NCBI GenBank assembly: GCA_036169595.1
Contig: CM069766.1
Coordinates: 310,001-337,500, forward strand
Origin: Dictyostelium firmibasis
Lineage: Eukaryota > Evosea > Eumycetozoa > Dictyosteliales > Dictyosteliaceae
Length of the DNA stretch: 27,500 nucleotides
Direction of reading: 5' to 3'
Shown: positions 2,508 to 27,500 of the stretch, piece by piece
Position numbering within the stretch: position 1 is the stretch's first letter
Layout: the number at the start of each line of letters is the position of its first letter
The notes under the pieces: generated by a model
The model's database searches: none
What the model was told of the DNA's origin: nothing
What the model saw: the letters and a program-made list of their open reading frames with translations, nothing else
Program-made: the position numbers and the translations under genes

Positions 2508-5496
<2,989 letters not shown>

Positions 5497-15770: not shown

Positions 15771-16440
15771 GATTATTAGTTTTTTTTTTTTTTTTTTTTT
15801 TTTAATTGGGAAGTTAACTTAATATATAGCAAATATTGAATGTTATAATAATTGTTGCTTTAACAAAAAATAAAAAAAAATAAAAAAAAATAAAAAGATA
15901 AAAATAACAAGATTATTTTCGACTTTGAAGAAATAATTTGATCTAAAATTTCCATACAAAAAAATTTAAATTTTTTTTAATTTTTTTTTTTTTTTAAAAT
16001 TTTTTTTTTTTTTCGTTTTTTTTTGAAGCGAGTGGTCATAATAAATTTTTTTTTTATTTTTTTATTTTTTTTTTTCAACGCTCTACGTTTCTGTGCGACT
16101 ATATATATAATTTTTTATATATATATTTGTTTGTTTTTTATATATACTCTTTTTTTATTATTCTTTTTTATTTATTTCATTTCATATTTCTATATATATA
16201 TATCTACATATAAAACTAGCATTCAAATTAAATATAATTTAAATACTATATTTAATCATTAAATAAATATTTTCGTAATTTTTTTATAATTTTTTTTTTT
16301 CATTAAAAATTTTACGTAAATTCTAAACACATACAATTCACACAACACAATTCACACATACACACACAATATAAAACACAACATCAACAACAACAACAAC
16401 AGTATCTATTACAAGAAGAAAATAAAATAAAAACAAAATC
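15321..16440. promoter_or_regulatory. Divergent intergenic region with G-box pair and CA-rich leader
   Basis: Between the starts at 15320 (minus) and 16441 (plus). The left part carries the G-box pair listed separately. The middle (15610-16020) is T-run dominated. The right part has TA repeats (16100-16205) and, from ~16328 to the ATG at 16441, a leader rich in CACA and CAACAA with almost no G. This is probably the 5' UTR of the VIT-VWA-eIF4G gene. Confidence 0.5.
15441..15520. promoter_or_regulatory. Pair of inverted G-box-like elements
   Basis: GGGTGTGATTGGG at 15441-15453 and, on the opposite strand, TTGGTGGGGGTGTGTAAAA at 15502-15520. Both fit the GT-rich G-box bound by the developmental factor GBF in Dictyostelium. 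They lie 120-200 bp upstream of the minus-strand start at 15320, and the two 7-bp cores (GGGTGTG and CACACCC) form an inverted repeat. Confidence 0.4.
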
Positions 16441-19400
16441 ATGTATTCAGGATTATGGACTAAAAATGGAGAACAAATACTTCCATCATTTATATCGATC
16501 AACGCCAAAGTTGTAGATTTGGCAGCACAAATCGTCTTTACCAAAACCTATTCAAACATTAACAAGTATTTCGCCACAATGAATAAGATGAACAATAGTA
16601 AGGAGGAGGACGCAACCTTTAAGGCATTTTTAAACACATCGATGGGTGTTCTATGTGGTTTCGAAATCAATCTCGATGGTAAGAAGATCACCTCCCAAGT
16701 CGTTAGTCAAACCGATGCAATGAGATTATTTGAAAAGAACCAAATTAGTACCGATGACATTGTCAAAGAGGCTGAATTCAACAATTCCGATCCACACATT
16801 GAAGAGGATTTCTTTCTCTGTAAAGTTAACAACCTCTCGCAATATAAAGAGTTGGAAATTATCATCACCTACTCCACTGAAATGTCCACTCAAGGTGACT
16901 ATCTCTTAATGGAGTTCCCAACTTCTCTAACTACAATTAGATCAAGTCAATTCTTTGAAACTTTAGATAATGAAAATATAACAAATACACCAACAACTCA
17001 AACACAATCTGTAAATACAATAACACAAACAACAACACCAAATACAAATATAAATAATACACAAAATAATAATAATAATATAGTAGGATCAAATACAGGT
17101 GGTTTAACACATTCAACATCTTCCAATAAATTATCATTATCATCATCATCTATTCAAGTTAATCAAAAACAAGGTTTATTGATCGAAATGAATTTAGAGA
17201 TGCCATCAAAAATCTCCGAGATTATTTCACCATCACATTCAGGTTTGATCGATGTCGAGTACAAAGGAGAGAACGGTAAGGTAACATATAAGGATTCACG
17301 TTCAATCGATGTCGTTAATCAATCTGATTTGGTAGTATTGATTAAATTAGATAATCCACATGAACCATATGGTTTCATTGAAGAGAATGAAAATGGTAGT
17401 CGTGCCCTTATGATCGCTTTCTATCCTCAATTGTCGTCTGCCGCTATCGCTGCCTCTGATTGTACACCTGTTGTCGAGAGTGAATTGATCTTTTTGGTTG
17501 ATGTATCCGAATCAATGGAAGGTTACAATATGAAACATGCAAAGAAAGCACTTCATCGTTTCCTTCACTCCCTCTCAAAAGATACCTATTTCAATATTAT
17601 CAGTTTCGCCTCTTCTCATCGTAAATTGTTTGCCCAATCCGTCAAATACAATGATGAGAACCTTAAAGCTGCCACTGCCTACGTTGAATCGCTCAAAGCC
17701 ATTAGTCACGGTGAAACTAATCTCTTAGAGCCATTAAAAGATATCTATTCCATTGGTGCCTCTCGTCCAAGAAAAATTTTCCTCTTAACCGATGGTCGTG
17801 TTAATAACCTTGGTCCAATCGTTGATTTAGTTCGTCAAAATGCTCATAATACTTCAGTTTTCCCAATTGGTATGGGTGAATTTGTTTCACGTCAACTTGT
17901 AAGTTTTTTTTTAAAAAAAATCTTCTTTTATTGTGAACTTAAACAAAAATAATTAACATTTTCGGTTTTTTTTTTCGGTTTTTTTTTTTCTCGATTTTTT
18001 TTTTACATTTTATCTCCTTCCCTTATCGATTTTTTTTTTTTTTTAGGTTGAATATATTGCAAATGCAGGTTCAGGTGTTGCAGAATTAGTAATTGAAAAT
18101 GAAACTATCGAAAGTAAAGTTATGCGTCAATTGAAGAGAGCATTACAACCAGCAATGTCAAACATTAAAGTTGATTGGGGATCATTATCAAGCAAGAGTC
18201 AAGCACCAAGAGATTTACGTACATTGTTTTTCGGTGATCGTTTAACAATTTATAATATCCTCGGAAAGGATGAAAAGATCGATGGTACCACAGTTAAATT
18301 AATTGCAAATGGTCCAACTGGTCCAGTATCTTTCCCAGTAACAATTAAGAGTGAGGAGACTAAAAAGGGCAACCTTGTTCATAGTTTAGCCGCCTACACT
18401 TTGATTCAAGATCTTCAAGATCAAATCTATGAAAACAATTTAGTTGATCCAAAAGATATTGATCCAATTCGTCAAAAAATCATTGATCTCGGTATTAAAT
18501 ATGGTTTAGCTTCAAATTATACCTCTTTTTGTTCCGTTGAACAACCTGATCAATTTAATGAATTATTAAATAATAAACAATCAGAACAAGAAGACTCAAC
18601 ATCTTCAACTACCACAACAGCAGTTGAAGAAAATTTTGTCGTTGAAGAGAAACAACCAGAACCAATCGTAGAAGAACAACCACCAGTTTTAAATAATAAC
18701 ATTAATTTACATAATTTAACAATCAGTCATGATGCCAAATCAAATGATAATGGTTTGTTCAAATCAAATGATAGATTCAAAGGTCATCAAGGTGAAAGTG
18801 CCATGATTTCATTAAGAGGTTCCGCTAGTGGTATCCCAACTACTTTATCTGGAAGTGGTATTCCTTTCTATAACCCATCTTCACCAAATCATGATCGTAA
18901 TATTAATTTAAATAATCAACAACAACAACAACAACAACAAAACCAACCAACAGCACAATCAACTCCATTAAAAACACCATTAAAAACTCCACTTACACCC
19001 TTATCAAAATCTGGTCTCAAAGTTAGTTCTCCAGAATTTGTACCAAAAAATACATTAAGTGCTAAAGCTGCTCCATTTGTTCCATCACCAATTAAAGTAG
19101 CAACACCAGCTCCAACAACAACACCACTACCAACTACCGATGCTAAACCAACTACTGTTGTTGAACCAACTAAACCGGTTGAACCAATTAAACCAGTTGA
19201 GCCAACTAAACCAATCGAGCCAACTAAACCAGTTGAACCAACTAAACCAGTTGAGCCAACTAAACCAGTTGTTACTGAACCAATTAAACCAACTGTTGAA
19301 GAGACACAAAAACCAGCTGCAAAACCAACACTTTTCGAAATGATTAAAATCGCAGAGGCTAAAGCTGCTGCTGAACAAAAAGCTGCTGCTGAACAAAAAG

Positions 19401-22400
19401 CTATCGCTGAAGCTAAAGCTGCTGCTGAACAAGCCTCCAAACCAGTTGAGCCAGTTAAATCAGTCGAAACAGTTAAACCAAAAGCTGATAAACAATCAAA
19501 ACAAAACGCAAAGGATAATAAACAACAACAATCGAATAAACCAGCTGCTGTTGCTGCCGCTGTTGAACAAAAACCAACAGTCACAGAAACTAAGCCAGTT
19601 GTTGAACAAAAACCAATTGTTGTACCAGAGTCAACCACACCAACAAAGCCAACCTTTGCTCAAGCTGCTGCTGCCGCTGCTGCTGCTCAACAAGCCGCTA
19701 CTCAACAAGCCGCTGCTGTAACTCCAGTTAAACAACCAACCAAACAAACAACACCAAATAAATCAGCACCCGTTGTTGAAACCAAACCAAGTGTTGTCAC
19801 CGAAGCCAAACCAGCTATTGTCACCGAAACCAAACCAGTCGTTGCAGCTGAAACCAAACCAGTTGAACAATCAAAACCAATTGAACAACCAAAGCCAGCT
19901 GAACAAAAGCCAGTCGAACAATCAAAACCAGTTGAACAATCAAAACCAGTTGAGCAACCAAAACCAGTTGAGCAATCAAAACCAGTTGAACAAACTAAAC
20001 CAATAGAGGCAACAACCAAACCAACAGTAAATTCAATTGCATCAACACTTGCAAACTTTAGTTTCCATACTAATGAACCAACTGAACCAACTCCAGCAGT
20101 TGCATCACCATCTACCACAACAACACAATCAAACACTGAATCTAATATTACTTCTAATAATAATAATATTAATATTGTTTCAACACCAATTAAAAAACCA
20201 GCAGTTACAAATATTTTACCAACTCAAGCAGTTATATTATCATCAGGAGCACGTCGTGTTTATAATAATGATTTCTTATTATCATTCAAAGACTCAAATA
20301 CTAAAGCACCAGATTCATTAAAGACAACACCAATCTTTTCAAATGGACCACAAGGATTAAGTCCATCATCTGGAAATGGTTCAAATAAACCACACTTTGG
20401 TAAGAAGAGAGGTGATCGTGGTGGTAGAGGTGGTAGAGATCGTGATGCAGAGCCATCAACTCCAATCGTTATTAAGAAAGTATTCTCACAAGATGTTCAA
20501 GGTACTCATCAAGAGTTGTTAAAGAAATTCAAATTCAATCTCAATAGAATCACCATGGACACCTATAGTTCCTTGATTAAAAACATCGATGAATTAAAGG
20601 TACCAGATGAAGAGGCCCTCAAGTCTATCTCCAAAATCCTCTTTGAGAAAGCAATTATCGATCAAAAATATTCCGCAGTTTACGCAATTCTTGCTGGTCA
20701 CTTGGATACTGCATTCCCAAAGTTTGCAGAACTTTCCCTCAAACGTGCCATTCTCGACAATTGTCAAACCGAGTTTAGTACCGTTGTTGATAAATCTAAA
20801 TTCGAAGGCTTAAGTAAAGAGGATCTCGAAGAACAAGAGTTTATTATCAAAAGAAGAGTATTGGGTAATATTAAATTCATTGGTGAACTTTATAAACATG
20901 GTGTTCTTGGTGAAAAGGTTGCCAAGGCTATCGTTGTACAATTGATTACCAAATGTGAAGAGAAATTGGACGAAGAGTCCATTGAGCCATTAGTTAAAAT
21001 TCTCAATACCATTGGTAAGAAACTCGATGAAGTTGACAAGACCAACACCGATTTATTCTTCACCAGAGTCATTAATATCTCAAACAATCCAGTCGTTACC
21101 GCTAGAGGTCGTTTCATTTTATTGGATCTCATCGATTTAAGAGCAAACAAATGGCAACCAAAGAACTCCACTCAAACCAAAACCAAAAAAGAAGAAACTG
21201 ATAAAGAAGAACGTTTCATTGCCAAACATGGTGGTCCAGCAAAGAGAGAAAACGATTCACGTAGAGGTGGCGATGATCGTAGAGGTAGAGACTCAAGAGA
21301 CGATCGTAGAGGTGGTGGTAGTGGCGGTAGAGGAGATGCACCAAGAGGTGCATTCGGTGGTAAGAGTAGTAAAGATGGTTGGGAAACTGTTGGTGGAAAA
21401 GGTGGTAATAGAGATAAAGGACGTGGTGATCGTAGCGGCGGCAAACAATCTCCAAGTGGTAAGAAAGATTCAGGTTTCGGTTCATCAAGCTCAAGCTTAT
21501 TTGGTGGTAGAAGGGATGATCGTAGAGATAGTGGTAATTCATCACCATACCGTCCAGGTCAAGGATTTGGTAGAAAAGATGATCAATCTTCCTCATCCAC
21601 CTCTGTTCCAAGCAGATCAAATGTATTTAGTGCTTTAGAGGATGATGACTACCAACCATCCTCACCACAACCACCATCAGTATTTGGTAACCGTGGTAAT
21701 GATTCACGTGGTGGCCAATCAGCACCATCAAGATCAGATAACCGTAATAAACAACCAGCTCAACCACCAGCACCAGTTGAACCAGTTAAACCAAAGATTG
21801 ATTTCGAAAAGATTGAAGACAATATTTCTATGACTTTGGATGAATACCTTGAAACCCATGATATCGATGAAGCCATCGAATGTATAAAAGAAATTAATGA
21901 ACCAACTGTTTTGGGTAAACAATTCAACATTTTCATCATGAAATCATTGGAAAGAAAAGAAAAGGAGAAACAATTAATCACCGAATTGTTTGGTGGTATT
22001 TTAACTGCTCAACTATTCAATGCCGAGCATATCAAAGAGGGTCTCAAAGACATTATCGATACCATCGAAGACATTGAAATTGATCTTCCATTCTCTTGTG
22101 TATTTGTTGCAACAATCGTGGGTATTTGTATAGAATCCGAGATATTCCCATTGAATTACTTAGAGGAGGCATACGCTCACTTGGTTGATAGTGACAAGGC
22201 CGAAGAGATGATTGTAAATACTTTTAATTCCATCGTTAAAGTCTCTGATAAGGATCGTTTGGTTGAAATCTATGAAAACACCAAAGGTCTTGACATCTTG
22301 AAATTATTCGCCCTCAAGAATAGAAAGGTTGCCTATTTGGAAGAATTCTACCAAACTCATTTCCCATATCTCTCACATGAGAAAGCAGTTGAAGGTAGCA

Positions 22401-22771
22401 ATGAATCCGCTTTGAATGAACAACCAGATCTCATTGAACATCTCTTATTATTACAATCTGCTGATGGTTATTGGCAATTGGATAAGAAATTAGCTGGTAT
22501 TTTAGGTATCTCTTTAAATATCTTGGAAGAGGTTGACTCAAGTGATAGTTGCGTTATTGCCACCCATCCAGAGGTTTGGGCAACTTGTTTAGCCATTTCC
22601 TTTGTTAAATTAAACAATGTATCTGATCCAGATGATGAAGATGATTTGGAATTAGTACTCAGTAAAAGTTATAAATGGTTGGCCTCTCAATATGAATCCG
22701 GTAAACCACCAAAACAATCTCAAGATGATGTTTTATTAAAAGCTAAAAGATTATTAAGTGAAGTTTTATAA
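16441..22771 (+). CDS. eif4g: VIT-VWA protein with an embedded eIF4G (translation initiation factor 4 gamma)
   Basis: Exons 16441-17898 and 18047-22771 join in phase 0 (GTAAGT/TTTTAG, 148-bp intron) to give 2060 residues. Domains in order: a VIT domain ~5-140; a Thr/Asn/Ser-rich insert ~180-240; a VWA domain from ~345 with an intact MIDAS (D354-x-S356-x-S358, T426, D451); the VWA5A-type segment ending at LGIKYGLASNYTSFCSVE (~651); a Gln/Pro/Thr linker with PVEPTK, PVEQSK and Ala-Glu-Lys repeats; the eIF4E-binding motif YNNDFLL at 1225-1231 (Y-x4-L-phi); a MIF4G domain ~1300-1525 with RRVLGNIKFIGELYKHGVLG; an RGG-rich stretch ~1548-1725; an MA3 domain ~1748-1890 starting LDEYLETHDIDEAI; and a VWA5A/PARP4-like C-terminus ~1947-2060 (LQSADGYWQLDKKLAGILG, then VWATCLAISF). 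It should bridge eIF4E and eIF4A at the mRNA cap. The role of the VIT/VWA part is unknown. I see no W2/HEAT-3 domain. Confidence 0.88.
19163..19275 (+). repeat. 18-bp tandem repeat encoding PVEPTK units
   Basis: About six 18-bp units encode EPTKPV with variants (EPIKPV, EPTKPI) in the linker between the VWA part and the eIF4E-binding site. A related EQSKPV/EQPKPV array is at 19864-20004. Both are Pro-rich and probably extended. Confidence 0.85.
19864..20004 (+). repeat. Second Pro-Val-Glu-Gln repeat array
   Basis: About eight units of the form EQ(S/P/T)KP(V/I/A). They are related in period (18 bp) and sequence to the array at 19163-19275, suggesting both grew from one unit, with the Ala-rich segment between them. 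Confidence 0.8.
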
Positions 22772-23047
22772 AAAAAAAAAAAAAAGAAATTAAAAAAAAA
22801 ATTAAATATAGTTTACATATAAAAATAAAAAACAAAATAAATTTTTAAAAAAAAAGACAAAAGAAAACTAAAAATAATTAAAAATAAAATCAAAATTGTA
22901 TAATTATATTATTAAAAATAAATAAATATTAAAATTATCATAAAATTAAGGATAAGATTCATTTTTTATTGTTGTTTTTAAAACTACAAATTAAAACAAT
23001 GAATGAAAATCCAATCCAAATATTCATCGTGTGTATCCAAAATATCC

Positions 23048-25465: not shown

Positions 25466-27500
<2,035 letters not shown>

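Follow-up and report, generated by a model that had tools for sequence, protein, structure and literature searches.

An eIF4G core placed between the VIT-VWA body and the C-terminal domain of a VWA5A-type protein in Dictyostelium firmibasis and related dictyostelids

Translation initiation is organized around eIF4G as its central scaffold, while VWA5A is a human tumour-suppressor candidate. In human VWA5A and Dictyostelium Vwa1, a long disordered loop carries the C-terminal domain (CTD), for which docking on the vWFA domain, at a site remote from the MIDAS, is predicted; the authors propose autoinhibition (PMC10539598). The same paper counts seven VIT/vWFA genes in D. discoideum and mentions a Vwa6 that is described in its supplement, where the fusion presented here may be listed. 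The literature that we searched, at the level of titles and abstract openings, held no description of it.

The locus lies in a stretch of 27,500 nucleotides of the D. firmibasis genome (contig CM069766.1, positions 310,001 to 337,500), referred to below as the window. Its gene, confirmed at 16441..22771 of the + strand, encodes a VWA5A-type protein with eIF4G lodged between its closed VIT-VWA body and its CTD, an architecture that we regard as nearly certain. Its features are as follows (window coordinates):

16441..17898, +: exon 1 (residues 1-486), with the start codon, VIT, Hyb1a and most of VWA
16492..16872, +: VIT domain (residues 18-144), Pfam PF08487, E 1.2e-5
17482..18085, +: VWA domain (residues 348-499), split by the intron; VWA_3, Pfam PF13768, E 2.3e-21
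17899..18046, +: intron, GTAAG...TTTAG
18047..22771, +: exon 2 (residues 487-2060 and the stop codon), one uninterrupted frame with the end of VWA, the eIF4G core and the CTD
18086..18541, +: up to residue 651, the region by which the VIT-VWA body is closed (Hyb1b, three-helix, VITpt2)
18809..18841, +: conserved island SLRGSASGIPT (residues 741-751), present in 8/8 orthologues
19016..19045, +: PAM2-like motif LKVSSPEFVP (residues 810-819), a candidate PABP-binding site
20261..20281, +: putative eIF4E-binding motif YNNDFLL (residues 1225-1231), of the form Y/W-x4-L-hydrophobic in 8/8 orthologues
20537..21151, +: MIF4G domain (residues 1317-1521), Pfam PF02854, E 1.3e-26; 100 bits in the genome search
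21236..21450 (approximate ends), +: RGG/arginine-glycine-rich stretch, read from the translation
21815..22144, +: MA3 domain (residues 1743-1852), Pfam PF02847, E 2.8e-14; also detected in the genome search
22145..22423, +: helical extension after MA3 and a short spacer (residues 1853-1945), from the structure model; 61% mean identity over residues 1736-1927
22424..22768, +: VWA5A-type CTD (residues 1946-2060), 48 bits with a profile of 108 VWA5A C-termini; hhalign P 5.2e-23

The product of 2060 residues, proposed in an earlier note made from the letters of this DNA, is borne out by the gene model. The frame is kept open by 15 of the tested GT-AG pairs, and only the intron at 17899-18046 yields the full 2060 residues; the splice junction that it creates, RQLVEYIANAGSGVAEL, is in accord with the orthologues. 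A stop-free frame of 1574 amino acids covers all that follows, from the final part of VWA to the stop codon. In 300-base windows, the GC fraction stays between 0.26 and 0.46 from 16350 to 22799, compared with 0.13-0.19 in windows that lie completely outside the gene; since it never reaches the outside level within this interval, no intergenic-like gap is hidden in the gene. Elsewhere in the window, two reading frames at 3128-5496 carry RRP5-type S1 domains (S1_RRP5, E 4e-7 and 6e-18) and are perhaps exons of one gene. A gene that runs off the window (25466-27500), with no Pfam match in the first of its reading frames, presumably has a likeness to the Mediator subunit 25 VWA domain, as judged by eye.

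Two features recognized as typical of VWA5A were found in the N-terminal part: VIT with a MIDAS-bearing VWA, and an ITIH-like body closed by VITpt2. The VIT assignment is borderline, with 25.9 bits in a Pfam scan of pieces, just below the cut-off of 26.5, and 28.1 bits, above the cut-off, in the genome search. The MIDAS motif DVSES begins at residue 354, and the DxSxS, T and D sites are present in 8/8, 7/8 and 8/8 orthologues, respectively, T being replaced by I in one of them. The intact MIDAS perceived in the earlier note is thus confirmed, as is the eIF4G core. The best solved relative of the latter in a PDB search is eIF4G1, from MIF4G through MA3 (E 5e-42), followed by eIF4G2 (E 2e-19), with CWC22 reaching merely 0.009; the eIF4E motif, preceding MIF4G, starts with Y in seven orthologues and with W in one. 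The fusion clade falls somewhere among the eIF4Gs in the MIF4G tree.

The assignment of the last ~110 residues relied on a profile built exclusively from VWA5A C-termini, which matched 109 of 120 proteins (the best 120 of 310 in the VWA5A search), 108 of these matches being used as rows and one being too short; in 106 of the 109 the match ends no more than 22 residues from the protein end. This profile scored 48-61 bits in 7/7 fusions and 57 bits in the eighth, compared with at most 4.7 bits in 210 shuffled and seven reversed fusions and at most 2.6 bits in 54 other MIF4G proteins together with a second D. firmibasis eIF4G. The reverse profile, made from fusion CTDs, placed the four VWA5A-like genes of the genome on top among 81 reading frames, in all four cases near their C-termini, and neither CTD profile exceeded 2.8 bits in the same 55 MIF4G proteins. 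When the C-terminus was compared as a single sequence with the VWA5A genes of the genome, the E values were just 0.38 (blastp) and 0.11 (phmmer), both weak, so the kinship is settled by profiles only. With strong matches and low controls, the alignment of this end to VWA5A C-termini, on which the earlier note had staked its interpretation, passed the test, and the view that the C-terminus belongs to VWA5A holds at the level of sequence profiles. An eIF4G HEAT/W2 domain was rejected as an alternative identity, with no such match in Pfam and the same low scores in the 55 MIF4G proteins. A further alignment, of VWA5A proteins (A4), comprises 21 rows from 20 proteins hand-picked among 62 non-redundant C-termini. 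A PDB search with a profile of fusion CTDs only gave no convincing relative. The structure model of the CTD, built from eight sequences, is of moderate quality (pLDDT 66.7, pTM 0.50); Foldseek returned no match to it at E <= 0.001, and the top ranks were taken by 9e5c_4s in Foldseek and by the MINT domain of PARP4 in VIA-align.

Seven orthologues were retrieved by searches that took in proteins of 1133-3605 residues, six from one protein-database search and the seventh from a MIF4G search: those of Polysphondylium violaceum, Heterostelium album, Acytostelium subglobosum and Cavenderia fasciculata, one JGI entry and two EukProt entries. Records of the named relatives read "type A von Willebrand factor domain-containing protein" or hypothetical. 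The domain order is the same in all eight proteins (window plus seven), and among 61 retrieved MIF4G proteins a VWA is listed in these seven and in none of the other 54, as judged from the precomputed Pfam list. In one EukProt orthologue (P0003, gene4874-6080), the gene model runs past the CTD into amine-oxidase-like sequence (PF01593), probably by a merge with the next gene. No fusion named as D. discoideum, D. purpureum, D. citrinum or D. firmibasis was returned within the searched size range, other proteins of these species being present in the database.

The fusions form a single clade in the MIF4G tree (100/99), from which 20 near-identical MIF4G proteins had been dropped beforehand, as well as in the VIT-VWA tree (100/100), constructed from 32 proteins hand-picked from the 120 VWA5A-search proteins (best 120 of 310). 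The former tree separates one set (87/66) with the window, P. violaceum, JGI and one EukProt sequence from another (96/93) with C. fasciculata, H. album, A. subglobosum and the other EukProt sequence. We take these two sets to match the two major dictyostelid branches, and the fusion therefore probably predates their split. Mean pairwise identity amounts to 71% for VIT, 68% for VWA, 59% for MIF4G, 61% for the MA3 region, 56% for the CTD and 47% for the eIF4E motif, vs. 18-44% for the linkers. This arrangement dates far back within dictyostelids and has been maintained under constraint.

Two short islands stand out from the poorly alignable linker. Residues 737-752, which include SLRGSASGIPT, show 93% mean pairwise identity vs. 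18% and 28% on their flanks; the S-x-I-P sequence inside this island presumably resembles EB1-binding motifs. The other island (74%) is the PAM2-like motif, whose pattern L...[SAG].EF.P is found in 8/8 fusions, in 0/55 other MIF4G proteins and in 0/120 VWA5A-search proteins (best 120 of 310). When each linker was shuffled 5000 times, the pattern turned up by chance in 1 to 8 of the shuffles. A PDB search with one peptide, that of C. fasciculata, gave as its sole match the PAM2 peptide of Paip1 (1jh4, 3ntw) at a weak E of 0.73, and among the seven peptides other than that of orthologue P0002, the Pfam PAM2 model gave 13.6 bits (cut-off 20) for one and nothing for six. The single MLLE match of the genome is in a PABP, with KITGMLL in its translation. 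The pattern is no more than suggestive of a PABP-binding site.

As to the origin of this architecture, the earlier note read it as eIF4G inserted into the linker of a VWA5A-like gene, not as two proteins fused end to end. Sequence comparison supports this reading: a VWA5A CTD follows eIF4G (P 5e-23) and occurs in none of the 55 other MIF4G proteins, and insertion into a host is the simplest history. The note had likened the CTD to VWA5A/PARP4-type proteins; of these two types, the host is VWA5A, and a PARP4-like host was rejected, with the genome copy falling elsewhere in the VIT-VWA tree, on a long branch. Across 113 of the VWA5A-search proteins (from the best 120 of 310), similarity to the N-terminal body and similarity to the CTD were uncorrelated (rho 0.10, p 0.28), and the data therefore give no support for one donor of both host halves. 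The fusion is not the sole eIF4G of its genome (31.46 Mb in 12 contigs, as searched): a second, ordinary one of 1094 residues (G000:C4, L001:4-3288) has an eIF4E-type motif (YSKELMMSL), MIF4G and MA3, with no VIT/VWA and no PAM2-like motif. The insert may be a duplicate of this gene: a single clade of the two was not rejected (p 0.18) in a test from which 24 rows had been dropped, the outgroup and long branches among them.

Overall, we lean towards viewing the fusion as a second dictyostelid eIF4G in one polypeptide, with the scaffold in a disordered loop and the VIT-VWA/CTD part controlling or placing it. Judging from its conserved motifs and domains, the fusion is probably a working eIF4G, which would gather eIF4E, eIF4A and, via the PAM2-like motif, PABP, like other eIF4Gs. 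Since the genome contains eIF4E genes, a PABP with MLLE and a second eIF4G lacking VIT/VWA, specialization of the fusion is possible. The eIF4G part is located exactly in the loop of Vwa1/VWA5A and, if the CTD docks on vWFA here too, as analogy with these relatives suggests, the scaffold would be held at both ends. We propose such a clasp, closing eIF4G into a loop, tentatively and at somewhat less than even odds; binding of a ligand or metal by the MIDAS, or of a partner by the CTD, might then open it and free the scaffold. In this way, the VWA5A-type part could hold or steer translation initiation or act as its switch. This suggests that initiation is physically linked to VWA5A proteins, about which little is understood, in a group that includes D. 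discoideum, an organism easy to manipulate.

Several other explanations have to be weighed against a regulated second eIF4G. An artefact of annotation or assembly joining two adjacent genes, for which the intron inside VWA could in principle mark a boundary, has a negligible probability: both junctions are inside one stop-free exon, seven other sequences have the same order, an AT-rich gap is absent within the gene, and the assembly, as published, comprises 31.5 Mbp in 12 contigs, the largest of 9.4 Mbp, at 739x coverage (PMC11193728). It is also unlikely that the fusion is a competitor that binds eIF4E, eIF4A or PABP without supporting initiation, a scaffold-shaped 4E-BP acting at some developmental stage. 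The presence of an ordinary eIF4G beside the fusion would fit such a repressor, as would the action of VWA5A-type Vwa1 in development with an SCF F-box protein (PMC10539598); nevertheless, MIF4G and MA3 are both kept and conserved (59-61% mean pairwise identity), beyond the needs of a decoy. Lineage-specific elaborations of eIF4G outside MIF4G, noted in PMC5862402, would be compatible with a passive fusion, in which the VIT-VWA/CTD roles were lost and the protein is simply an eIF4G. This is quite improbable given that conservation of VIT, VWA, the VITpt2 region and the CTD is close to that of the eIF4G domains, and that the MIDAS is kept.

The remaining alternative concerns vaults. The VWA5A CTD looks related to the vault-binding MINT domain of PARP4 (PARP4 1579-1710), the likeness consisting of a fold rank for a modelled structure and a weak profile score; unexpectedly, this weakly favours the vault part of the tether suggested in the earlier note. 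As a vault adaptor, the fusion would bind major vault protein through its MINT-like CTD and bring cap-binding complexes or ribosomes to vaults, which we consider rather improbable. PARPs are reported among the vault-associated proteins of D. discoideum (PMC13100048), and MVP is not named in the searchable text of the VIT/vWFA paper (PMC10539598). The bolder version is a long shot: the VWA5A CTD and PARP4 MINT would be one family, which in dictyostelids docks the initiation scaffold onto or inside vaults, loading cap-binding complexes and ribosomes into the lumen. If true, vaults and translation would be physically connected through the fused eIF4G, which would explain the oriented ribosome in ~1/10 of Dictyostelium vaults; such a link of initiation with vaults is more speculative than that with VWA5A proteins.

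Compared with known systems, PARP4 (vault PARP) has a VIT-VWA body similar to that of the fusion (E 1.8e-15 and 1.7e-6) and a MINT domain that the fusion CTD may resemble, whereas the PARP and BRCT domains are absent from the fusion in the Pfam scan. The separate PARP4-like gene of the genome (L009/L015) has no CTD match; its reading frame in L015 (G000:C2:642500-651800) ends in low-complexity sequence. The Trypanosoma brucei VWFA protein of a flagellar microtubule-doublet structure (9e5c, chain 4s), in which no eIF4G is named, ranked first in Foldseek for the CTD model, with a probability of 0.96 but E 0.38, and its residues 736-821 match the VWA5A CTD profile at E 0.032. With animal eIF4G1/eIF4G3 and yeast p150, the fusion shares the order of eIF4E motif, MIF4G and MA3; it differs from them by VWA5A parts on both flanks and by having no W2/HEAT3 match in Pfam, and from other MIF4G proteins (54/54 retrieved and the second D. 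firmibasis eIF4G) by its PAM2-like pattern. We know of no other eIF4G that is enclosed in this way by a second multi-domain protein. The VWA5A/Dictyostelium Vwa1 family shares with the fusion VIT, VWA with a MIDAS, VITpt2, the loop and a CTD at the extreme C-terminus; the fusion clade is apart from the dictyostelid VWA5A paralogues (each 100/100), as their sister at 85/79 only, and unlike them carries in this loop about 1,290 residues, including eIF4G.
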